A DNA stretch of 64,000 nucleotides from Delphinus delphis (lineage: Eukaryota > Chordata > Mammalia > Artiodactyla > Delphinidae), in the NCBI RefSeq assembly GCF_949987515.2, contig NC_082698.1:32206070-32270069 (forward strand). The letters run 5' to 3'. The position numbers and the translations under genes were made by a program. Positions 1,922 to 63,869 of the stretch are shown here, piece by piece; the first letter of the stretch is position 1, and every line of letters starts with the position of its first letter. The notes below the pieces were generated by a model that ran no database searches, was not told the origin of the DNA, and worked only from the letters and a program-made list of their open reading frames with translations.

Positions 1922-2083
1922 CTGGATCCATGGGGAGCGCATAAATCCTGAGGTTTTCATTAAAGTTTCCTAGCAAGTTAAGAAAATTCTGATCTGTATA
2001 ATCAAAACGATTCTGGAAAATAATGGAGCAGATCACATTGCAGGGAGCACAGCCCAGGATGAAAGTGGGGTCACAGGGTGACC
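1922..2083 (-). pseudogene. CYP2C18: CYP2C pseudogene exon 4, 1 bp insertion
   Basis: 162 bp against the usual 161 bp. It reads [40 protein letters not shown] and [22 protein letters not shown] then stands where CCCTGGATCCAG (PWIQ) is expected, a +1 insertion. Acceptor TTCTTTAG, donor GTGAGG. About 4.5 kb separates it from exon 3, partly because of an inserted L1 with its own SINE (2260-3939). Confidence 0.92.
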
Positions 2084-2259
2084 CTAAAGAATTGAAAAGA
2101 TTTATAAAACACTATTAAGATATAAATATAAAACTCTGTTGTGGATAACAGATAATTTTAGAATCTCTGAAGCAATATCTACCTAGAAATTTCCCTATCA
2201 GCAAACATTTAAGCATGCTTAAAATCAACACATCACTGTTCCCTTAAACATGAATTGAC

Positions 2260-3939
2260 AAAATGGATTAAAGACCTAAATGTAAGGCCAGACACTATAA
2301 AACTCTTAGAGGAAAACAGGCAGAACACTCTATGACATAAATCACAGCAAGATCCTTTTTGACCCACCTCCTAGAGAAATGGAAATAAAAACAAATAAAC
2401 AAATGGGACCTAATGAAACTTAAAAGCTTTTGCACAGCAAAGGAAACCATAAACAAGACGAAAAGACAACCCTCAGAATGGGAGAAAATATTTGCAAATG
2501 AAGCAACTGACAAAGGATTCATCTCCAAAACATACAAGCAACTCATGCAGCTCAATATCAAAAAAACAAACAACCCAATCCAAAAATGGGCAGAAGACCT
2601 AAACAGACATTTCTCCAAAGAAGACATACAGATTGGCAACAAACACATGAAAGAATGTTCAACATCGTTAATCATTAGAGAAATACAAATCAAAACTACA
2701 ATGAGATATCATCTCACACCAGTCAGAATGGCCATCATCAAAAAATCTACAAACAATAAATGCTGGAGAGGGTGTGGAGAAAAGGGAACCCTCTTGAACT
2801 GTTGGTGGGAATGTAAACTGATACAGCCACTATGGAGAACAGTATGGAGGTTCCTTAAAAAACTAAAAATAGAACTACCATACGACCCAGCAATCCCACT
2901 ACTGGGCATATACCCTGAGAAAACCATCATTCAAAAAGAGTCATGTGGGGCTTCCCTGGTGGCGCAGCAGCTAAGAATCCGCCTGCCAATGCAGGGGACA
3001 CGGGTTCGAGTCCTGGTCTAGGAAGATCCCACATGCCGTGGAGCAACTAAGCCCATGTGCTACAACTACTGAGCCTGTGCTCTAGAACCCGTGAGCCACA
3101 ACTGCTGAGCCCATGTGTCACAACTACTGAGCCTGCACGCCTAGAGCCCGTGCTCCACAACAAGAGAAGCCACCGCACTCAGAAGCCCGCGCACCGCAAC
3201 CAAGAGTAGCCCCCGCTCGCCGCAACTAGAGAAAGCCCACGCGCAGCAACGAAGATCCAACGCAGCCAAAAATAAAAATAAAATAAAATTTAAAAAAAGT
3301 CATGTACCACAATGTTCACTGCAGCTCTATTTACAATAGCCAGGACATGGAAGCAACCTAAGTGTCCATCGACAGATGAATGGATAAAGAAGATGTGGCA
3401 CATATATACAATGGAATATTACTTAGCCATAAAAAGAAACGAAATTGAGTTATTTGTAGTGAGGTGGATGGACCCAGAGTCTGTAATACAGAGTGAAGTA
3501 AGTCAGAAAGAGAAAAACAAATACCATATGCCAACACATATATATGGAATCTAAAAAAAAAGAAAAAGAAAAAAAATGGTCAGAAGAACCTAGGGACAAG
3601 ACAGGAATAAAGATGCAGACCTACTAGAGAATGGACTTGAGGATACAGGGAGGGGGAAGGGTAAGCTGGGACAAAGTGAGAGAGTGACATGGACATATAT
3701 ACACTACCAAATATGAAATAAATAGCTAGTGGGAAGCAGCCACATAGCAAAGGGAGATCAGCTCCGTGGTTTGTGACCACCTAGAGGGGTGGGATAGGGA
3801 GGGTGGGAGGGAGGGAGACGCAAGAGGGAAGAGATATGGGAACATATGTATATGTATAACTGATTCACTTTGTTATAAAGCAGAAACTAACACACCATTG
3901 TAAAGCAATTATACTCCAATAAAGATGTTAAAAAAAACC
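2260..3939 (+). mobile_element. LINE-1, 5'-truncated, with clean TSD (nested SINE inside)
   Basis: The end of L1 ORF2 ([20 protein letters not shown] near 2485, [10 protein letters not shown] near 2705), the 3' UTR and an A-tail after ATACTCCAATAAAGATGTTA. Flanked by AAACATGAATTGAC (2246-2259) and AAACATGAACTGAC (3940-3953), a 14 bp TSD with one mismatch. A CHR SINE interrupts it at 2947-3297. It lies in intron 3 of the CYP2C pseudogene. Confidence 0.9.
2947..3297 (+). repeat. CHR SINE, long type, nested in L1
   Basis: GGGGCTTCCCTGGTGGCGCA head, GGGTTCGAGTCCTGG B box, the long body with repeated CAACTACTGAGCC units, and an AATAAAAATAAAATAAAA tail. TSD AGTCATGT at 2939-2946 and 3298-3305. It splits an L1 ORF2, so it is younger than that L1. 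Confidence 0.9.
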
Positions 3940-3953
3940 AAACATGAACTGAC

Positions 3954-6604
3954 CATTCCATCCTAGTTTGTTTAATAATAGTTCTCCAAATACTCCATTT
4001 ACATCACTGCGTTAAGTCAAGGTGCTGGTTATTTTGTAGAGCGAAAGAAGAGAAAAAATTTTAAGGGTCAGTTTTTTAAGACAATAATTCAGGTTATCTA
4101 TCAGTGCAAAATCACGTCTGTCTGGTAAACTTGTAGACGATTAAGCACTGACGTAGGAAGGAAGCAATAGTTAGGAACCTGGAAACGTTTTATATATAGT
4201 GAATAGCTGAAGGAACAACTTGTACCATCAGGAAAGGAAAAGATTAAAGAGAGAAAGATTATGGAAAAAGTCAGGTGTTTGATGGTACAAAGAAAAAAAA
4301 GCAAAAGCTGTCCATGTTGTACGAGAAGAAAACTAACACAAATGAACATGAATTGTAAGATAGATTTGTTTGCCGAAAATAAAAATAGGTAAGAATTCTG
4401 CATTTCAAACAAATCACAGGGCAAACAAGAAAGATTAAATTGAGAAATGGAGTCCTTTTGTTTCTTTATTGCAGTATGCAGAGCAGGTGTGGGGAGGAAC
4501 ATCCTGCTCTAAGATATAGTGTCCCTCATCACCAATCAGGCCTCACATTTAATTTATTTGGACAGAACACGCCCTCTTGTGGAATTCTGGGATATTGCTA
4601 CATATAGCCATCAACGGAATACCATATGTTGTTACAAATTTTTTAATTTGAATTTAGATGAAGTCCATCATTTTACAGACAAATAAATTAAAGCAGAGGA
4701 AAAGTAGTTTTCTTTTTTAGTGGTTAATATTTACATGAAATTGCTATAATCGGATGATCGATAAACTTTATATGCAAAAAACCCAAATCACATCATACAT
4801 GTAATTAAGGGTGACTTGAATCAAAGTGTTGTGATGAAATGATAGGGAATTAAGTAATAGGAACCTATTTAGTTAACTGCTCGTATGCCAGGCTCCTTTT
4901 CAGCTGAACCAAGTCATGGTTCTTAGTGTCATGCCAAGACACTAAGCTTGCAGAAAAACTTTTACTTTAGAAGGTAGGGGATAATTTGAGAAGACCTTAA
5001 GGTTTCTGTGTGTGTGACAGCTAAAATCTGGTTTTTAATCTTTCCTTTCACTTGAGAGAGAGACTTACAAAGCAGGGTAATTTGGAATTCAGACGGAAAA
5101 TAAGATCCATCTTAACAAGCACTTCATAGGTCAGTACAGCTGACAGTAAGGGGTAAAATATTACCGAAGTACCAAAATTGGTAAAAAATTACCAATTACC
5201 ATCCAATTGTTTTAAAATGTACTTGGGTTTTACTTTTATTCAGATGGTAAGGCCAACACATCAGGAGATGATAAGATAGTTTATTACTCATACTTCCCAA
5301 GAAGAGGGGGCACCCTACACAAGGCCACATGGGGAAGCACTGAGGTCAGTCAGGAGGCAGAAGGAACAAGGGGAGAGCATGGGCCAAAGCCTTTACTGGG
5401 GTTTTCACGGAAGAAATGAGCAAGGCTGGGTAGGTATGCTCAGTAAGTTTAAGACTGGATAGTTTGGGTAATTTCAGAGGGCTCTAGGCCCCAGGGGTGG
5501 TCCCTAGCTGTCCTGTAACTGGCCCTGGGTTGATTTAGGGCAGGGAGAATATTGGCTTGGCGTGTGAGGGTTTCATAAAGGAGGTTTCCTGGGGGTATCG
5601 GCTTTGGATAGGCTGGTTTGAAAATCAAAGGAGTGCTCACACACAAGATGCGATGCTCTATCTCAGAATTAGCTAACCCTGGGAGAGGCAGTTGCTCCCT
5701 GGGTCTGCAAGTCCCCCAAAATGTCAAAGTATCATAAAGTAGAGAAAAGAAAAAACATGATTATTATATCAATAATGGGGGAGGGAAGTATAAAGAAAGC
5801 TGAAAACAGAAGAAACTAATAGGGAAGGCAGGGTAATGAGTTATTAATAATAGTTGAAATCTGTTTAAATAGATCATTTTATAACCTGGTATTTGTGTAA
5901 TGTTCAGGATTAAGCCACAGCATCTATTTCTTAAAATATATAAAACAACACTAAATAGGGAGCAACATTAAGTAAATGAAGCTGCTAATTTTAAAACAGT
6001 TATTTATAAGGAAATCACAATTGATGAGGTCTGCACTAAGGGATGCCTAAGCAATTAAAACCATAGACAATTATCATTACTGGCCAGAACAGTAGGCAAT
6101 GGGTCTCAGAAGAAACCCTCAGACATGTGCCTGAGGCGACCATACAAATATAGGCCAGTTAAGTGAAAGCACATGTCATTTGTTTCACGCTCCATAAGGG
6201 TGTGATGAGGTCATTCCCACCATGTCCACTTGATGAAATGTTCTGGAATATATAACCCACATTTACACTATGGGAAAAAACATTATTCTCTAATGCCAGA
6301 AAAAAACGAGACTCAAAACCTTCCACCTTCATGACCTAATGATTTGAAAACAAAAAGTTCAGGACAGGATAGGATTAAATGACCTTTAATCCACACTATA
6401 TGCACCACAGTGGGTGTACACACACAACAAGCACAGATACACAAAAGCCCTCTAGGCTCTCTCCTCTCTCTCCCCGCTCCACAGGAGGGCTGACAACCAT
6501 GACCCATATGAAAGATGTGGCTGTCCCTGAAATGTTTCCTAGGATGTCACTGGAGAAGACAGCAGTCTGTTAAGGTGAGAGTGACAGAGCATAGCATCAC
6601 CCAC
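3954..6604. other. CYP2C pseudogene intron 3 remainder
   Basis: AT-rich unique DNA plus the LTR-like repeat at 5265-5735. The 4520-4640 segment shares similarity with 22735-22800 (see findings). No coding signal. Confidence 0.6.
5265..5735 (-). mobile_element. Retroviral LTR-like repeat, copy A
   Basis: Contains GTCAGGAGGCAGAAGGAACA, AGCATGGGCCAAAGCCTTTA and GGGTAATTTCAGAGGGCTC, closely matched by the copy at 19925-20235. LTR identity and strand are inferred from base composition and the shared family. Ends are not defined. Confidence 0.45.
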
Positions 6605-6753
6605 CACTGGTCTCTCTCAACTCCTCCACAAGGCAGTGGGTTTCCTCTTGAACTCGGTCCTCAATGCTCTTCTTCCCCACCCCGAATTCCACAGTGTCAT
6701 GAGGGAGATGCGCCAGATCTCCTTCCATCTCTTTCCATTGCTAAAGAGGATTC
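6605..6753 (-). pseudogene. CYP2C18: CYP2C pseudogene exon 3, 1 bp deletion
   Basis: 149 bp against the usual 150 bp. It reads [20 protein letters not shown] and WNS, then loses one base in the phenylalanine codon of RNFGMGK; the rest ([20 protein letters not shown]) is in another frame. Two arginines have become tryptophan by C-to-T change. Acceptor CCTGGTAG and donor GTGGGTGA are intact. It lies 172 bp beyond exon 2, the compact exon 2-3 spacing usual in CYP2C genes. Confidence 0.92.
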
Positions 6754-6925
6754 CTACCAGGAGGAGAAACAGAAACTAGGAGGGAGGCCCTAGGGAAGGA
6801 GGAGTGAGCTGACACTTGGCAGCCTGGCAGATGGACCCAGCTCTGCTGGGGGGCTCTTCAAATTCCTCTTTTCCATCCTCCCCACCCTCACTACCAATGC
6901 GGAAGATGCGCACACGCACACCTAC

Positions 6926-7090
6926 CATGTCCTTTATTAACTCTTTGAGACACAGGGAGACTGCCTCTTCCAGAAAACTCTTCTCACAGATCAATCAGGG
7001 CTTCTTTCACTGCTTTGTAACCATGCAACACTATGGTGGGCTTCAAGCCAAAATACCCAGTGAACACAGGGCCATACACTTTTTTGAGAG
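6926..7090 (-). pseudogene. CYP2C18: CYP2C pseudogene exon 2, +2 bp and in-frame TGA
   Basis: 165 bp against the usual 163 bp of CYP2C exon 2. The two extra bases are in the A-run at the exon start (CTCTCAAAAAAGTG instead of CTCTCAAAAGTG). The frame then reads [20 protein letters not shown] and [12 protein letters not shown], then TGA where glycine (GGA) is expected, then EEFSGRGSLPVSQRVNKGHG. Acceptor TTTTCCAG and donor GTAGGT are intact. Confidence 0.93.
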
Positions 7091-7261
7091 CTGGAAAATG
7101 TATATTAGCAAAAGAACTCACAATTTGGTCTATTTTGCTCATGATTAAGATTGTTATCAACATCATGTTGTTGATGTTTTATTCTGCCACACATAACTTC
7201 AAAGATTTCTGGATCTTATATATGTATGATGATAATTCAACATCCATTCATGATTAAAAAA

Positions 7262-8342
7262 AAAACTCTCACCAAAGTGGTTGTAAAGGGAACATATCTC
7301 AACATAATAAAGCAGAAGACCTAAATAGACATTTCTCCAAAGACAACATACAGATGGCCAACAGGCATATAAAAAGCTGCTCAACATCACTACCTATTAG
7401 ACAAATGCAAATCAAAACCACGATGAGGTACCACTTCACACCAGTCAAAACGGTTATCAACAAAAGTCTACAAATAATAAATGCTGAAGAGGGTGTGCAG
7501 AAAAGGGAACCCTCCTACACTGGCTGCAGGAATATAAATTGGTGCAGCCACTATGGAGAACAGTAGCGACTCCTTTAAAAACTAAAAATAGAGTTACTAT
7601 ATGATCCAGCAATTCCATTCCTGGGTATTTACCCAGAAAAAAACAAAAACTCTAATTCGAAAAGATAATGCACCCCAGTGTTCACAGCAGCACCATTTAC
7701 AATAGCCAAGTCATGGAAGCAACCCAAGTGCCCATCAACAGACAACTGGCTTAAAAAGATGTGGTGTATTTATACAATGGAATATTACTCAGCCATTAAA
7801 AAAAGACCAATAAAAAAATAAATATATATTTTTAAAAAGTGAAATGTTGCCATTTGTAGCAACCTGGATGGGCCTAGAGGATAATATGCTTAGTGAAATA
7901 AGTCAGATAAAGAAAAATACTACATCATATCACTTATATGTCAACTCTAAAAAATAATACAGGGCCTCCCTGGTGGCGCAGTGGTTGAGAGCCCGCCTGC
8001 TGATGCAGGGGACACGGGTTCGTGCCCCGATCCAGGAAGATCCCACATGCCGCGGAGCGGCTGGGCCCGTGAGCCATGGCCGCTGAGCCTGCGCGTCCGG
8101 AGCCTGTGCTCCGCAACGGGAGAGGCCACAACAGTGAGAGGCCCGCATACCACCAATAATAATAATTAATAATAATGAATTTATATACAAAAGAGAAAAA
8201 GACTCACAGACACAGAAAACAACTGTACGGTTACTAAGGTGGGGGGGAACAAATTAGGGGTATGGGATTAACAGATACAAACTAATATACATAAACTAGA
8301 TAAGCAACAAGGATTTACTGTATAGCACGGGGAATTATACTC
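7262..8342 (+). mobile_element. Older LINE-1, left part, cut by the YARS2 insertion
   Basis: A degraded L1 ORF2 end ([20 protein letters not shown] near 7380) and 3' UTR up to GGGGAATTATACTC. The same consensus resumes at about 11467 with AATATCTTGTGATAAC. The first ~45 bases come from further upstream in ORF2 and are joined to the rest by an internal deletion. A CHR SINE is nested at 7962-8152. Confidence 0.8.
7962..8152 (+). repeat. CHR SINE nested in old L1
   Basis: GGGCCTCCCTGGTGGCGCAG head, GGGTTCGTGCCCCGA B box, and an end at GAGAGGCCCGCATACC with an AATAATAAT tail. Confidence 0.85.
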
Positions 8343-8373
8343 ACTTTCTTGTACTAGGTCACCAGGAAGGAAG

Positions 8374-9281
8374 ATGGCGGCACCCAAATCGCGGTATACT
8401 TCCCGAGGTGGTGGTTTGGTACCACAGGCGGGTCAAGAGTCTTCCCCTGGTACTGCGTGAGGCCAACTCGGGCGCTCGGGGGTTGCTGGAGGTGCCGAAG
8501 GCTCCGGGTCTGTTCAAGGAGTTCTTCCCAGAGAGGGGCACAAAGACAGGGCTCCCAGAGCTCTTGGACGGTGGTATGGCGGGCAACTTTCCCCAGACCA
8601 TCTACTGCACCTTCGACCCCATGACTCGCTTCCTTTGTGGCATCTGCTGGCACTGTTGGGCCTGTTTCACTTCCACCGATAGGGCCACAAAGCGAGCGCG
8701 TCGGTGGGAGGTGCGAGCGCGTCGGTGGGAGGTGCCACCGCGCGCCTGGGAGACGGCAGCGCCGGTACCTGCGCGCACAAGGCCCTGGACGCAAAGCACG
8801 TGCAAAACAACGTGCGCGCCCTACGCCGGGCGCTCTAGGCTGCTGATCACCAGCAGCTGCTCACTAACTGGCTGACGCGGGACAGCTGCGCGGTGCTGGA
8901 CAGCTCGGCGTGGTATCGGAAGCAGCACCTGGTGGACTTCTTAGCGGCAGCGGGCGGCCACTTCCGCGCGGCCACGCTGCTGAACCGGCCCAGCGTGCAC
9001 ACTCGGCTGAAGACCCAGGTGGCGTGAGTTTGGCCGAGTTTTTATACCAGGTGAACCCTGGAATAAGCGTCCTGGATAATACATGCCGCAAAGCAAACGC
9101 CGTTTCAGACGGTCCTGGAGGGTATCGGATGATAACGGAAGGCGGAGTCAGTATAAATCACAAGCAAGTAACGGATCCTGAGAGTGTTTTAGTTGTTGGA
9201 CAACATATTCTCAAGAATGGACTTTCGTTACTTAAAATAGGAAAAAGGAATTTCTACATTATAAAATGGCTTCAGCTATGA
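8374..9281 (+). pseudogene. YARS2: YARS2 processed pseudogene, internally deleted and frameshifted
   Basis: YARS2 charges mitochondrial tRNA-Tyr. This intronless copy starts ATGGCGGCACCC and carries [51 protein letters not shown] and SLAEFLYQV. It then jumps straight to [14 protein letters not shown] and the complete C-terminus, [20 protein letters not shown] to [15 protein letters not shown] and the stop. The region between (most of the Rossmann fold with the KMSKS-like loop, and the anticodon-binding domain) is absent, and several frameshifts and stops break the first part, so no enzyme can be made. GC-rich base composition (8.37-9.0 kb) reflects the parent's first exon. It lies within CYP2C intron 1 on the opposite strand. 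Confidence 0.88.
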
Positions 9282-9630
9282 TGAAAAATCCTTCTGGTGG
9301 TTCAAATTTATCCATCATTCATTCTCAAGACATACGAACGTATAATCTTCGCTTATGCAAATCAAACAACAGAGAATGGAGTATACTCCAGGCCTCACAG
9401 CGTGAGTGATTTCATTATTTATATAAGTTGGTTCTGTTTGTGTAATAGTGGTATATTTCATTTCCTGGTCCTTAAACATTAAGGGCTACCACAGAAAGGC
9501 ATGATTTCCGGGGTTAATCTCTTTTCATAATTATTCTCCATGAAAAACTAAGTGCTATCTTTCCTATCCTGTCCTTCTTGTTCTTTTGAAGACAAGGAAT
9601 AACAATGAAAAACAGGTAGTATAAGAAATT

Positions 9631-9749
9631 TTAAGGGGGGGACTTCCCTGGCGGTCCAGTGGTTGAGGCTCCGTGCTTACCCTGCAGGGGACACGGGTTC
9701 CATCCCTGGTTGGGGAACTAAGATCCCACATGCCAAGCAGCGTGGCCAA
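9631..9749 (+). repeat. Short tRNA-derived SINE with TSD
   Basis: GGGGACTTCCCTGGCGGTCC to GCAGCGTGGCC. TSD AAGAAATT at 9623-9630 and 9750-9757. Inserted into the YARS2-containing block. Confidence 0.8.
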
Positions 9750-10404
9750 AAGAAATTGTGGGTACTTTTATATCAGGTGAATATCTCACTGGATTTTTTT
9801 GTTGTTAAGGAAGCTAGTACAGTTCTCCTTTGAAAAGGAGAAAAGTTAGAGGAAGCCATATTTGACATTAGAAATTACGGTAGAAAGTTTCCTTTGGAAA
9901 AAAAAAAAGAACAAAAATCAGTACTTGACTTTTCAGGAAGTTTCTAATTCAGTTTTCCAGTCCCTTGCCTGTGTTCCATAGAATTAAATTTACTCACAGC
10001 CTTGTTTATTTGTTTTTTTTTACTTAGTAAAAAAGGTATCAATGTTTTATAAATTTATAGGCTTTTAGTTTTTAAAGTTTCAAATTCTGCCCCCAGGCAG
10101 ATTGCAACTTGAGATGAACTGAAAAGTTAAGTAACCAACAAGATAAAATAGAGGATAATCATATGAGTATATCAAAAGATAAAAGGGATAAAGAAATTTC
10201 AGGTCAAATTTAAAGTATTTGGAATCAAGACTTAGTTAAATTAAGCTCTACATTCACTAGGCAATTTGATCCTCCAGAAATGTTTCTAAAACCTGAAAAA
10301 TCAAGGTGATAGCACCCCTGTTTCCCCTGAGGATCAAGTGAAACACGAACACAAAATGGTTTACAATCAGATTTGTTCTAGAAAATCTTACAGGCAGCAA
10401 AGCA

Positions 10405-10510
10405 TGGCTTTAGAGTTCAAATTCTAGCCATTTACTACCTGGGGATTACTTGGAGCAAGTCACTATCTTCATATGCAAAAATGGAGATGTAATAATGCTC
10501 GAGTCAATTA
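10405..10510 (+). repeat. MIR-type ancient SINE (partial)
   Basis: GGCTTTAGAGTTCAAATTCT..CTTGGAGCAAGTCACTATCT..GGAGATGTAATAATGC follows the MIR core pattern. Confidence 0.5.
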
Positions 10511-11466
10511 GGAAAAATCTAACAGGGAAAAAAAGCCATAAAACTTTTGTACAGTGTAAGCTGTATTGCTATGTTCCAAAGTAGATTTAAATGTTAGAAA
10601 GCCATAGTTTATCCAAACCTTCGTCTGGGAGTAAAGTTAGGAAGAATTCATTTATTGACAAACTTTAATGTCACTTCATAGCAGCAATTTTATTTACACA
10701 GTAACAATGAACATACAGGTATCCATTATAAATGTCAGAGATCATCGCTACATTTCAAAACTTCACTCAGTTTGAGGGCCAACAAAAGAAGTTTTTCTCT
10801 TTCCATACCTATCTTGCCTCTGTTTTTCTTTGTACAAGGTGTGTAGTACTAGCAAGCGCATTACTGTAGCAGGTCACATTTTCAATTTGAAATTTGATGT
10901 GCTGGGGAAAGGTGCATGACGAGGTGTTTTCCCCCTTACAAATTCAAAAAGCTAGAATAGAATGGTCATCATCTGACCTACCTGAAATAAGTAAGTCACG
11001 GATTGCTATGATTTCAAAATTGATGTCTAATGATGGCAGAGTAATTTTAAAGTGTGCTAACAAACATCTTGGAAGCCTGTATTCTACGAAGATGGTACTA
11101 CTAACAGATTCAAAGTAGTACCGTATCATATCAGACCGAAACTGGTTCTTTATGTTTGAGATGAGTTGCTGAGCCTATTGTTTCTTAGTAAATGGGTACC
11201 ATTAGCTAAAGGTAATGGACATATCCATATTGTTCCTGCCAGTAGTCCTTCATAAATGTCATGACTTTAAAAATTTTAGTATCTACAATATATAATTGAT
11301 CTTCAAATTTATAATGTAATTCATATCAAGAACCACCTGGAGAATTTTAGTAAAATGTTTATGTTCTAAACCTCACTCCCAACACCCTGAAAGCCTTTAA
11401 GAGTATGTGTGTGTGTCCAGATGTTTTTCTTTAAATAACAAAGCTCCACATTATTTTCATTTAAAA

Positions 11467-11589
11467 AATATCTTGTGATAACATATAATGGAATATAATC
11501 TGCAAAAACAAACTGAATCACTATGCTGTACACCTGAAACTAACGCAATATTGTAAATCAACTATACTTCAATAAAAATGTTTTAAAAG
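11467..11589 (+). mobile_element. Older LINE-1, right part (3' end)
   Basis: Runs from AATATCTTGTGATAACATA through GTACACCTGAAACTAACGC to CAACTATACTTCAATAAAAA. It is the missing 3' end of the L1 at 7262-8342, displaced by the YARS2-containing insertion. Confidence 0.75.
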
Positions 11590-11790
11590 ACTAACTATGA
11601 TGGTGATTATTATATCACTTCTGATGTGCCGGGCCATGGCCTGGGTACTTGGTACTCAGATTATTACTAATCATCATATCAAAACTTTGAGCTAGATTTA
11701 TTTACCCTGTTTTATAGATAAAGAGATTAAGGTTCAAAGGCTGTCCTGTTTATTTCCAGTGTCTCACAGTTAATAAATAGAAGACCCCAA

Positions 11791-12711
11791 TTTTTTTTAT
11801 TGAAGTATAGTTGATTTACTTCAACTATAATGGTGTGCCAATCTCTGCTGTACAGTACAGTGACTCAGTTTTACACATATATACTTTTTTTAAATATTCT
11901 TTTCCGTTATGGTTTATCCCAGGAGATTGGATATAGTTCCCTGTGCTATATGGTAGGACCTTGTTATATATCCATTCTAAATGTAATAGTTTGCATCTAC
12001 CAACCCCAAACTCCCAGTCCATCCCTCTCCCTCCCCCCAGCTCCCCCTTGGCAACCACAAGGCTGATCTCTGTGCCTGTGAGTCTGTTTCCGTTTTCTAG
12101 ATAGGTTCATTTGTGCCATTTTAGATTCCACAAATAAGTGATAACATATGGTGTTTGTCTTTCTCTTTCTGACTTACTTCACTTAGTATGATAATCTCTA
12201 GTTGCATCCATGTTACTGCAGATGGCATTATTTTGTTCTTTTTTATGGCTGAGTAGTATTCCATTATATATATGTACCACATCTTTATCCATTCATCTGT
12301 TGATGGACATTTAGGTTGTTTCCATGTTTTGGCTATTGTGAATAGTGCTGCTGTGAACATAGGGGTGCATGTATCTTTTTGAACTATAGTTTTGTCTGGG
12401 TATATGCCCAGGAATGGGATTGCTGGATCATATGGTAATTCTATTTTTAGTTTTCTGAGGAACTTCCATACTGTTTTCCTTAGTAGCTGCACCAACTTAC
12501 ATTCCTACCAACAGTGTAGGAGGGTTCTCTCTTCTCCACACCCTCTCCAGCATTTGTTATTTGTAGACTTTTTAATGATGGCCGTTCTGACCGATGTGAG
12601 GTGGTACCTCATTGTAGTTTTTATTTGCACTTCTCTAATAATTGGTGATGTTAAGCATCTTTTCATGTGCCTACTGGCCATCTGTGTGTCTTTGGAGAAT
12701 GTTTATTAAGG
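11791..12711 (-). mobile_element. LINE-1 3' end, minus strand, with TSD
   Basis: L1 3' UTR and end of ORF2 on the minus strand ([20 protein letters not shown] near 12420). Flanked by AGAAGACCCCAATTT (11779 on) and AGAAGACCCAAATTT (12712-12726), a 15 bp TSD with one mismatch. Confidence 0.88.
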
Positions 12712-13553
12712 AGAAGACCCAAATTTCAACACAGCTTAGTTGACCTCTGATGCCTAAGAAACTTATCAGTCCCCAATGCCTACCTTGGAACCAATATCCA
12801 GTTGACTGCTTCAGAATCACCTGTAAAGCTCATCCCATGGGAATTCTGACTCAGTAGTGATAAATACTAGAAATCTATATTTTTTAAAACCACCCTAGAT
12901 GATTCAAATGCCCAGCCCAGTTTAAGATCCGCTAGTATTACTAACAGAAAGAGAGCAAGCATCACAAAGGCAGTGCCAGGACATGCAGCAGCTCATGGAA
13001 GAACAGTTTCTTCCATCCTGCATCATTCTTGGCCACAGACAGCAGCTTTGTGCAGAATCCAATAGGATTTTATTACTACCCAGCTGGCTCTGACTCATTA
13101 CTTTTTTCTTTCATTCACTCATACTTGTCCTGCTCCCAAGCTATTTCCTTAACATCAGGCATAATTTGCTTCTTCACAGAAGTTCAATTTTCATAGCTAT
13201 TCTGAACAAAACACAGTTTATATAATAGATGACTTCTTGAATGAAATCTCTAACCACAAAACATTTCCCTTACCATTTACCTTCAGCCAAGAATCATAGC
13301 AAATGGTGGTGAAACAAAGGGAAGAAACACTTCAGTCTTTTGTCACGTTATTATTTTGATTCAACCATACAAAGCCCTAAATGTTTCTCTACTCACAAAA
13401 TGCATTCCACTGTTATTGACAATGACAGACCAAAAGTAATACTCCAAGCGAGTGTTTGCCTTAAATAATATCTTTTAATAATTTTTATTTTAATATATTG
13501 TAATGTATTTTAATATATTTTAATGAAGATATTTTATTTAAAAGTAGATGTTC

Positions 13554-13767
13554 ATGGGCTTCCCTGGTGGCGCAGTGGTTGAGAGTCTGCCTGCCGATGT
13601 AGGGGACATGGGTTCGTGCCCCGGTCTGGGAAGATCCCACATGCCGCAGAGCGGCTGGGCCCGTGAGCCACGGCCGCTGAGCCTGTGCATCCGGAGACTG
13701 TGCTCCGGAACGGGAGAGGCCACAACAGTGAGAGGCCCGCGTACCGCAAAAAAAAAAAAAAAAAAAA
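13554..13767 (+). repeat. CHR SINE with TSD, beside CYP2C exon 1
   Basis: GGGCTTCCCTGGTGGCGCAG to GAGGCCCGCGTACCGC plus an A-tail of about 20. TSD AAAGTAGATGTTC at 13541-13553 and 13768-13780, identical on both sides, so the insertion is young. It sits about 50 bp from the donor of pseudogene exon 1. Confidence 0.93.
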
Positions 13768-13828
13768 AAAGTAGATGTTCGTTTACTTTCCCTTTGCAAG
13801 CCACTGGATGAACATAAAACCTACTTAC

Positions 13829-14000
13829 ATTGATTAAGGATTTGCTGATGTCCTTAACGTCTAACTGTAGGATATTTCCAAGAATTGGGAGAGGAGTGGG
13901 GCCAGTCGGGAGCTGCCCTTTCCCAGAGCTCTGTTTCCAGAGAGGAGAAGCAGACAGGAGAGAGAGAGAGACAGAGGACCAGGACCACAGCCGGATCCAC
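13829..14000 (-). pseudogene. CYP2C18: CYP2C pseudogene exon 1, start codon lost
   Basis: The expected ATG reads GTG at 13998-14000, followed by GATCCGGCTGTGGTCCTGG (DPAVVLV). The leader before it, AAGAAGAGAAGGTTCCA, matches the CYP2C 5' UTR. The CTCTCT run in the membrane anchor is about 8 bp too long and a second run about 4 bp too short, a net shift of +1 base. The rest, from SSGKGQLP to [14 protein letters not shown], is well kept and ends at a perfect GTAAGT donor (13823-13828). Estimates of the indels rest on the remembered family sequence. Confidence 0.9.
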
Positions 14001-16192: not shown

Positions 16193-17239
16193 TGATCCAA
16201 AGATTACTTAGGAGAGTTCTGAAATCTCCAAGCAGTTGTTTCATTTACTTCACACTTTGTTTTTAATTATCCTGAAATTGGATTACAGGAAATCCATTAC
16301 ACTATTTAATTTTTTTTAAGCTGAGGATCTTTTATAGGACTATAGTCCTTTTGGACTCTAGTCTTTTATAGTCCAAAATGGTGAATTTTCATTAACATTA
16401 CATGGTCATCTGTTATTAACATTTGTTTGACATTTTTAATTGTATCACTCCTTCTTTCTACATCGACCAGAGTTTTAACTGCCTGATGGGTCAGCAGAAC
16501 ATGAGGTATGAATCTCCAGTGATGGCAAAGGATGGCTTTCTCCTTCCTGCATTCATTCAAATGCTCATTCATGTATTCCTCTCACAAAAATGCATGGAGT
16601 ACTGGGCCCCTAATCCCAGTCAGGCCCTGCCCTGAGCACTGAGGACATAGGAGCAAGTGAACACAATTGCTAAAGAAGGGGTGTGACCCCACATTGGCAA
16701 TGGGAGGAAGATCTTTCCAGGCTGAGGGTACAGCATGCCTAGAGGATTGGATGGGCCTGCTGGGGCCACAGAGGGAGAAGTGTAAGTAGAGAAAAGAAAA
16801 TGTCAAGGGCAGGGTGGAGGGTGTGTGAGTTTTCATTGCTTTGGTACTGCTCACTCAACCTTCTGCAGGCATGGTCTGCCCAGTTACCTGTCACAGGAGT
16901 GATTCTGGGCAGAACCCAGCTCGGTGATCTCCACAATGTGGTGTGGTCCAGCTGGCCATGGGAGTAGCTGTATAGGGGACTCTGCTTCAGGCGCCACTGT
17001 GGAGGAACCACATCCTAGTAGGAATGTGGACCTGGAGCAATTGTGGCAAATGCTGAAGAGTTTCCTGGCAGAATGCACTGACAGTGAGACACCCAGGCTC
17101 GCTGTCCCTGGATATCAGTGGGAGACGGTGGAGTGTGCTGGGATGGGTCAGGTGTTCATAGCTCTCGAGTTTAGGCAGAATTTTTCAGGTAGTCAAAGAA
17201 CGGCTTTCTCTACAGGGAAACAAGGAATCTGCCAGTCAG

Positions 17240-18500
17240 CAGTTCAGCACAAGCTGTAGCAAAATTTAATGCTCCTGACAAGTTTCATCCTGTGAAGGAA
17301 GAGGATGCAAATGCAGAAAAGTCTGGTGACCTGGACTTGTTCAACCCTATGATGAGGAACATCATATGTGTTGTAATAAAACATGGGGGGAAAGAAAATC
17401 CTCACTATTCACACCAAGAATGGTTGATATCTGTTCCTGAGGGAAAAAAAAAAAAAAAGATCTAGCCTCTGGGAGATGAAACCAATTCTATCAAAAAAAG
17501 TGGAAAAAGCTAAATCACAATTAAAACTACTGTGGGCGACTGCGAAAAAGGCTCAAGGTCTCCACTGTGAGCCTGAGTGTAGAGTCCAGTCATGTCTCTG
17601 CGGGATGCTCCAAAGTCAAATGCATATTCAAACATTGAAAATAGCAAGAACGATCTATCCTACACCAACATGGCTAAAAGAGAGAAGGAAAAGCCCACCT
17701 GACAGATCCTCATGAAGGCGTCCAGACTGAAGAATCTTCAGTCAAATGGGCAGATCAACATCCTAAGGAGGGAGGAAACGAAATGACTGAGCTTCAACAG
17801 AGACAAGAAGAGCAACTTAGAATGACCTGTCATGGCAGATCGTAACTTGGCAGCAAGAAATGGGAAGTTCTGAAGCAAATGACCTAATGATGCATGAAAA
17901 TGATGAGCTCAAGACCTACAGGAAACAATTCAAAGATCTCAAAAAAAAGCTGGCAAGAATCGTTTCTTCTTCACAGAGGCAGCCTGTCCGTGGAACTAAA
18001 ACCTCAGGAGAGTTTTGGAGGGAACTGAATGAAACTTCATCATCTGCAGAGAAGAGGTTGCAAACCTGAGACAAAGAAAAACCCTGTGATTAAACTTGAG
18101 CTCCTAGAAGTGGTTCCTTGGACATCTGATGATCCCAAAGGAGCATTTGGCAAGGACCATTTGCTCCCCAATCTCTGTGCATGGGTGCTGCTTCCCTTTC
18201 CTCAGACCCTCCCCCTGAGTGCCAGGCTGACCTCCCCCTGCAGCTCCGTTCCCCAGCCCATGTTTACTGTGAGTCTAAGGGGAGAGCTCCTGGCAAGAGG
18301 ATATTCACCACCACCCCAGGAAGCCTACAGACACCCCTCTGAATCATATCCTACCAAGGGGTTTCTGTCTGCCTTTTTGTCCACCATGGCCTGGCTTTTT
18401 TCCCTGGACACTGCCATTCTGAAATTTGAAGTGTGTTACCTGTGGCCTCCCTCATGACATGAGTCGTAAAAATCCTAATACACTGGTAGACTTTTATGTC
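17240..18500 (+). pseudogene. Possible processed pseudogene of an unidentified coiled-coil protein
   Basis: Coding-like segments follow each other in shifting frames. They include KFHPVKEEDANAEKSGDLDL near 17280, AKREKEKPT near 17665, ELQQRQEEQLRM near 17790 and HENDELKTYRKQFKDLKKKL near 17895. The charged, Q/E/K-rich composition suggests a coiled coil, and the lack of splice sites between segments suggests a retrocopy. AT-rich, UTR-like sequence follows. I do not recognise the parent gene, and chance ORFs in unique DNA remain possible. Confidence 0.3.
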
Positions 18501-32921: not shown

Positions 32922-62210
<29,289 letters not shown>

Positions 62211-63869
62211 CTGTAACATAATTTTTTCTTAGTGTCAAAAGTGGAAAATGCAAAGTATGAAACACACATCTCAAATAACTTAAGTTCGCAATGAAGAAAC
62301 TGTATATAAAAATTAAAAAACAAGAACTTGCGCTTCAAGCCTTTATGGAGTAACAGAGAACAGATTTACCCTCCTGCCTTAAGCAACTAAAATCTAAATA
62401 TATCAGTGGTTTTCAGCAACACGCAGCAAAGGACAGTGAACACTGTCCTGTGAACAGATTTACCCTCCTGCCTCAACCAACTAAAATCTAGATAAAATAT
62501 ATCTGGTTTTCAGCAACACGCAGCAAAGAACAGTGAACACTGTCATGAACCACGCGAATCTTCTGACTGCCCAGCTTACTGCCTGGAGGCAACTTCCAAG
62601 TGCAAATAATGGAGGGAGAACCCAAATAGAGCTCAACAGTCTTCCTGAGTTGAAAAGACAGAGTGCAAAACTCAGAGGAGCTAGCAAACCAAGGTCAAGT
62701 ATCAGAGAGGGGACAGTTTCATACAAAAGAGGCTCTGAAGATCTGTAGTGGCATCCTCAGGCTGAGTACTGATCAGTGTGTGAGTGTAAGAAAATGAAGG
62801 CCAGGAAAAGAGCAACTAGAAAGCAGGTAGAACAATCCCTGTGCTCACAAGGGCTCAGGAACAGTTCACATTCCCGTCAGCCAAAGCTGAAGGGCCTCTT
62901 AATGTATGGGGCTTCAAGAACATTCAGAAGAGGGACCAAGTTATTCTTGGACTAAAAAAGCTGTTCCATAAGTCCCCTAACAAAGCTTTAAAAGCAGGAC
63001 AGAAAACGATTCAAACCATTTCCAAGAGGTGTTTAAAAGAGTATTTACCTTACAGTGAGTCATTAAGCTTGGTATTTGTTTTTCTGTTTCATTTTACCAA
63101 ACGAAGGGTTAAAAAGGGCTTCAACAAAGGAAAAAGAGAATTTAGCAAATGTAGCAAAATCTTGATTGATAACTGTTAAATGTGAATGATGGGGACAAAA
63201 GGATTTATTGTAGTACTGACACTTGCCCAAGTTTTTAAATCTTCATACTTCTAGTGGACTATAAATAAATTATACAGTGTCTTAGATGATAAATGCAATG
63301 CGAAGAAAAGAACAAGGTAAAGGGGATCAGGAGTGTGAGGATGGAGGTGCCAGGTAACTTTATTTAAGGTTGTCAGGGCAGGTCTCATTGAGAAAACATG
63401 TAAGCCAAAGCTTGAAGATGATGATGAAGTAAGCCAGGCAGATATCTATTGAGAAGAGGGTTCCAAGTAGAAAACAGCCAGTGCAAAGGCCTAAAGGCCG
63501 GAAACACACCTAGAACAAGGTCTGAAAGGTATGGGGGTTGAGGGAGGCAACCAGACTGCTTATAGTCTTGTAGGCCATCCTAAGGACTTTGGCTTTGTTA
63601 GAAACAATGTAAGCTAGAAAGCAGTGAAACATCATTAAAATACTGCAAGTGGGTGGGGGGAAGCACTAAAGAAAAATAAATTCTTCACCCAGTAGAAAAT
63701 CTTTCAAAAATAAAGGTAGATGAAGACTTTTTCAGAGATAAAAACTAAAAGAACCTAACACCAACAGAAAATGCAAACAAATCTATAATAACAGAAAGCA
63801 GATCAGTGGCTATCTAGTGATGAAGACAGGAAGTGAGGGATGGGAGAAAATTAAATAAAAGGGGCAGAA
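62211..63869. other. HELLS: HELLS intron running to the window edge
   Basis: Intron upstream of the exon at 62154. It holds the 94 bp tandem duplication and a stretch at 63340-63640 resembling an old mammalian interspersed repeat (TTGTAGGCCATCCTAAGGAC). No upstream HELLS exon was found here. Confidence 0.6.
62358..62546. repeat. Tandem duplication, two copies of about 94 bp, in HELLS intron
   Basis: GAACAGATTTACCCTCCTGC begins at both 62358 and 62452, and TTTTCAGCAACACGCAGCAA with CAGTGAACACTGTC recurs at the same spacing. The copies differ at a handful of positions. Non-coding, 148 bp upstream (in the gene's direction) of the HELLS exon at 62154. Confidence 0.9.

Follow-up and report, generated by a model that had tools for sequence, protein, structure and literature searches.

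The question raised by this locus is whether the dolphin Delphinus delphis still keeps a working CYP2C gene beside HELLS. In humans, CYP2C18 adjoins HELLS, and HELLS and PDLIM1 bound an interval of approximately 0.6 Mb. The CYP2C cluster of mammals lies between these two genes, as stated in passages of PMC9597770 and PMC10294912, and the human gene order at the cluster is given in a passage of PMC4964396. The window, i.e., the whole stretch of 64,000 nucleotides analysed here, corresponds to C16:32206070-32270069 (C16 being contig NC_082698.1) of a genome of 2.66 Gb in 630 contigs; the 200 kb to its left were also read, 264 kb in total, and this one genome assembly is the basis for all results on the locus. 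Two remnants are distinguished, psiA, which is the CYP2C remnant beside HELLS, and psiB, a second tandem CYP2C remnant further left. It is very probable that psiA is the former cetacean CYP2C18, decayed in place, that psiB is a second broken remnant, and that the CYP2C cluster has been left without a working gene.

The neighbour that anchors the locus is the following.

Window 32925..62228, minus strand: HELLS, coding exons for residues 87-838

In a tblastn search with a human HELLS protein (838 aa), these residues are found as colinear, open stretches at 62228-32925; the stops within two of the stretches are intronic, and two exon pieces match PDB 9z04, lymphoid-specific helicase. The initial annotation had taken HELLS as intact, which holds for residues 87-838, and residues 1-86 would fall right of the window. 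It had also placed the P450 gene downstream of HELLS, and exon 1 of psiA indeed lies about 19 kb from the HELLS stop on the same strand, which makes psiA the cluster member next to HELLS, as expected of a CYP2C18 orthologue. Seven exons of psiA were found.

Window 14000-13829, minus strand: psiA exon 1, 172 nt, GTG for ATG, net +4 in a CT run, donor GT kept
Window 7090-6926, minus strand: psiA exon 2, 165 nt, +2 in an A run near the 5' end, TGA at codon 91, splice sites kept
Window 6753-6605, minus strand: psiA exon 3, 149 nt, -1 frameshift, splice sites kept
Window 2083-1922, minus strand: psiA exon 4, 162 nt, +1 frameshift near the 3' end, splice sites kept
C16:32205504-32205329, left of the window, minus strand: psiA exon 5, frameshifted, -1 nt, A-rich stretch
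C16:32199755-32199614, left of the window, minus strand: psiA exon 6, open
C16:32186826-32186685, left of the window, minus strand: psiA exon 8, open

The P450 identity of psiA is far beyond chance, exons 1-4 read in pieces matching PDB CYP2C9 with an E value of 5e-94 and the Pfam p450 family with 6e-44. Exons 1-4 measure 168, 163, 150, and 161 nt in human CYP2C genes and 180, 163, 150, and 161 nt in CYP2C23 of the same dolphin genome, with which the lengths listed above can be compared. Codon-level alignment places the GTG at 14000-13998, in a frame that reaches a stop 5' of it before any ATG, and the TGA of exon 2 at 6986-6984, and all the lesions that had been reported in exons 1-4 (lost ATG, run slippage, +2, TGA, -1, and +1) proved to be real. 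Lesions thus affect five of the seven exons found (exons 1-5). The survival of the splice sites was likewise borne out, since the AG and GT dinucleotides are kept at 7/7 sites of exons 1-4. The gene had been described as standing at its native locus, and this is what its introns and its HELLS neighbour on the same strand indicate; a processed copy can be rejected as the origin of psiA because introns and splice sites are present, as in a unitary pseudogene.

Exons 7 and 9 of psiA gave only chance-level matches within the HELLS-PDLIM1 interval (E 0.25 or worse), although the genome search with a CYP2C18 query did pick up the corresponding two exons of CYP2C23, at 60-64% identity. A seven-residue match resembling the haem motif, MCLGEGL (C16:32194993-32194973, E 1.2), is located between psiA exons 6 and 8, has no P450-like surroundings, and was taken as chance. 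A working member would have an open frame with the haem-binding Cys in exon 9; psiA has a broken frame and no exon 9 was found for it in the interval, and it is therefore a pseudogene. Intron 1 of psiA also contains an unrelated element, which is not part of the P450 gene.

Window 8441..9281, plus strand: intronless YARS2-like copy, best E 2e-36 in tblastn with YARS2

This copy of the gene for mitochondrial tyrosyl-tRNA synthetase has lost a large internal part and changes frame, and its 137-residue C-terminal open reading frame has no PDB match and only sub-cut-off Pfam matches (S4, E 0.0015). At window 17193-18069 (plus strand), a run of open reading frame pieces resembles a decayed intronless gene copy, although none of three frames tried from it matched a Pfam family above the cut-off. 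A HELLS intron holds, at window 47470-47722 (minus strand), a 7SK RNA-like stretch of 135 bits that is probably a retro-copy.

Further left, three exons of psiB were found before PDLIM1, which ends at C16:32160635.

C16:32183244-32183083, minus strand: psiB exon 1, GTG start, +1/+2 frameshift pair enclosing a TAG
C16:32181866-32181706, minus strand: psiB exon 2, 161 versus 163 nt, acceptor AA for AG
C16:32181531-32181382, minus strand: psiB exon 3, open

Exons 1 and 2 carry lesions (two of the three exons found), and exons 4-9 of psiB were not found in the HELLS-PDLIM1 interval. The two remnants share the GTG, and their likeness is unevenly distributed. Between C16:32220155-32219898 of psiA and C16:32183330-32183083 of psiB, the 5' flank is 95.3% and exon 1 is 93.5% identical, versus 76-85% for the introns and 84-85% for exons 2 and 3 (gap columns left out in all cases). 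This pattern is read as a gene-conversion tract spanning exon 1 and its 5' flank; such a tract would likewise account for the common GTG. Because the identity of flank and exon 1 exceeds that of the introns and of exons 2-3, gene conversion is likelier than descent of both copies from a single old dead ancestor marked by the GTG; strong conservation of a promoter region is a possible alternative source of the 5' identity. The dN/dS ratio between psiA and psiB, 0.37 over a comparison of 132 codons that excluded stops, is a mixture of functional and dead time.

The lineages to which the two remnants belonged were addressed with a comparison set of 109 proteins of exactly 490 residues, out of 256 fetched. 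Within this set, psiA is nearest to a CYP2C18-like protein of Hippopotamus (P0079), with 299 of 353 compared residues identical, followed by CYP2C18 of camel (297) and rhino (293). In the full-length tree (32 rows), psiA is grouped with CYP2C18 of hippo, muntjac, and camel at a support of 96/84, and not with other CYP2C lineages, as an orthologue would be; the earlier assignment as CYP2C18-like is thus upheld. Nevertheless, hippo joins muntjac first (95/78), where the species tree would pair it with psiA. For 7/7 psiA exons the score against CYP2C18 exceeds that against CYP2C9, in two of them by just 1-2 points. The nearest proteins to psiB among the 109 are Odocoileus 2C18-like (133/151) and the 2C19-like proteins of hippo and Moschus (131 each). 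A tree on residues 1-161 (33 rows), in which the position of psiA is unresolved, groups psiB with hippo 2C19-like, Odocoileus, and cow 2C42 (88/85), which weakly suggests that psiB may belong to the CYP2C19/2C42 group. Proteins of the CYP2C18 group and of the CYP2C19/2C42 group are both present and intact in hippopotamus (P0079 and P0121), and a loss prior to the split from hippo is thus not supported.

The initial annotation would have been overturned by an intact copy of the same exons elsewhere in the assembly. Such a copy was looked for in all 630 contigs and was not found among the best candidates scored, again as in a unitary pseudogene. The genome search with Pfam p450, in which the best 92 of 219 candidates were scored, yielded 97 matches, and that with CYP2C18 (the best 87 of 124) yielded 84. 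Outside psiA and psiB, just two of these 84 matches reach at least 70% identity among the best candidates scored, namely exon 3 of CYP2C23, with 71% identity to CYP2C18, and the last exon, with 72%, of a CYP2E1-like nine-exon set (C16:222851-233045) whose remaining exons show 44-57%.

C16:28025362-28056752: CYP2C23, nine exons, canonical lengths and splice sites, 503 open codons

This set matches CYP2C23 proteins, is 96% identical to CYP2C23 of Megaptera, lies 4 Mb from the cluster, and is the only intact CYP2C found genome-wide among the best candidates scored. In other mammals, CYP2C23 is located between ERLIN1 and CPN1, according to a passage in PMC10294912. The interval from HELLS to PDLIM1, 78 kb long and free of N, yielded no intact CYP2C. 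Since psiB is also broken and the interval holds no intact member that could be found, the initial annotation understates the case: what one cetacean has lost is the drug-metabolising CYP2C cluster.

Many drugs are handled by CYP2C enzymes, some of which make epoxy-eicosanoids, and CYP2C9 enzymes have a role in reperfusion injury. The initial annotation had proposed that the loss could be tied to diet or aquatic life, which would be a possibility. The loss could have been adaptive, for instance if a diver benefited from no longer producing epoxy-eicosanoids or superoxide through CYP2C. That both cluster copies are gone would fit such an advantage, but the eicosanoid-type CYP2C23 has been kept intact, and adaptive loss appears improbable. 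Somewhat less probable still would be that only surplus duplicates died and that a functional CYP2C of the cluster persists elsewhere, unassembled or missed. Only the best candidates were scored, an assembly in 630 contigs falls short of a closed genome, and a cetacean sequence could sit in a 90% cluster that bears the name of a different species, such as P0024, which has 130 members. However, among the candidates scored nothing of such grade except CYP2C23 was found outside the locus, and the protein searches point in the same direction: the hippo CYP2C18-like query returned no cetacean-named row in the best 120 of 7071 (2 unnamed), versus four of the 120 rows listed for CYP2C23 (Megaptera, Balaenoptera, Physeter, and Monodon). 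Human CYP2C18 as a query also returned no cetacean-named row in the best 120 of 7228 (3 unnamed). This lack of cetaceans among the best CYP2C18 protein rows is suggestive and no proof, each cluster bearing one name only. An assembly or base-calling artefact, in which a functional locus would seem dead through indel errors in short repeats and the collapse of a tandem cluster, is very improbable: several lesions do lie in short repeats (the CT run of exon 1, the A run of exon 2, and the A-rich stretch of exon 5 of psiA) and tandem P450 clusters are prone to collapse in assemblies, but substitutions account for the GTG start, the TGA, and the loss of the psiB acceptor, an interval free of N yielded neither exon 7 nor exon 9, HELLS and CYP2C23 are open, two copies are broken, and a gap concealing the cluster is ruled out by the sole N run in the 264 kb read, 157 nt long and outside the HELLS-PDLIM1 interval.

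Decay in place, as the preferred reading, would imply the following history. The ancestor common to cetaceans and hippopotamus would have had at least two genes, CYP2C18 and one of the psiB type. In the cetacean lineage, selection on these monooxygenases would have been relaxed, psiA and psiB would have gathered frameshifts and point lesions, a short gene-conversion tract would have homogenised exon 1 of both copies, both with GTG, and deletions would have taken psiA exons 7 and 9 and psiB exons 4-9, collapsing the cluster. No working enzyme would be expected from psiA or psiB, exon 9, which carries the haem ligand, having been found for neither. As judged from the sequence, the animal should be without CYP2C8/9/18/19-type activity and would rely on CYP2C23, CYP2E1, and other families.

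Besides the pairing of hippo with muntjac in the full-length tree and the unresolved position of psiA in the tree on residues 1-161, other observations count against this decay. Exons 6 and 8 of psiA and exon 3 of psiB are still open, and relative-rate counts show no clear speed-up in either remnant, with 27 psiA-specific versus 21 hippo-specific changes using camel as the outgroup, 29 versus 20 using rhino, and 8 versus 7 and 6 versus 11 for psiB. The end of constraint thus cannot be placed by these counts, which indicate that decay at the protein level is mild and that the loss may postdate the cetacean stem. A load of five frameshifts in some 1.1 kb would suggest, in turn, tens of millions of years. 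Chances are about even that the whole HELLS-PDLIM1 CYP2C cluster is naturally knocked out in toothed whales, and perhaps in every cetacean, with CYP2C23 alone kept. As side observations in the same genome, an ENAM stretch is open, enamelin being broken in baleen whales, and OMP (L034) is open and a few residues shorter mid-protein than human OMP through an in-frame deletion. Both point away from baleen whales and suggest a toothed whale, and the repeats of the window look cetacean. An open OMP alone is not diagnostic, according to a passage in PMC13299492.

A mammal without CYP2C genes between HELLS and PDLIM1 would be a natural test of whether such enzymes are dispensable. In humans, voriconazole is metabolised by CYP2C19, CYP2C9, and CYP3A4. 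For bottlenose dolphins, a passage of PMC11767432 describes one case in which maintenance doses followed the plasma level at intervals of 3-14 days and another in which they were given weekly. This sparse dosing fits poor CYP2C clearance, and loss of the cluster may help to explain why the drug is given so rarely to dolphins. However, a twice-daily regimen of 3 mg/kg in belugas, reported in a passage of PMC10778029, runs counter to this, and CYP3A could matter more. If the cluster-wide knock-out is true, poor clearance would be predicted for other CYP2C substrates and some pollutants. The loss thus offers a concrete genetic hypothesis for odd dolphin drug kinetics and might also bear on the accumulation of pollutants in whales.

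Cetaceans are already known to have lost genes, and no earlier report of loss of the entire HELLS-PDLIM1 CYP2C cluster in cetaceans was found among the titles and abstract openings listed from the open-licence literature searched; the main text of PMC6643896 contains neither "P450" nor "CYP", and CYP is likewise absent from that of the Gene Loss DB paper. Compared with artiodactyl CYP2C18, such as hippo P0079, psiA shares the exon plan, the HELLS-adjacent position, and the clade, but it lacks the start codon, has frameshifts in exons 1-5 and a stop, and its exons 7 and 9 were not found. Elephants keep several CYP2C genes in the cluster (passage in PMC10294912), and the carnivorans described in a passage of PMC9597770 keep one to five isoforms there. 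The CYP2C21 pseudogene of the domestic cat, described in a passage of the latter, is also a decayed CYP2C of this cluster in a flesh-eater; however, one intact isoform is described as left in the cat cluster and none was found at the dolphin locus. The contraction of GST genes in cetaceans (passage in PMC6643896) and the inactivation of paraoxonase among cetaceans or semiaquatic mammals (passage in PMC10202596) are likewise losses of detoxification-type enzymes, although in different gene families.
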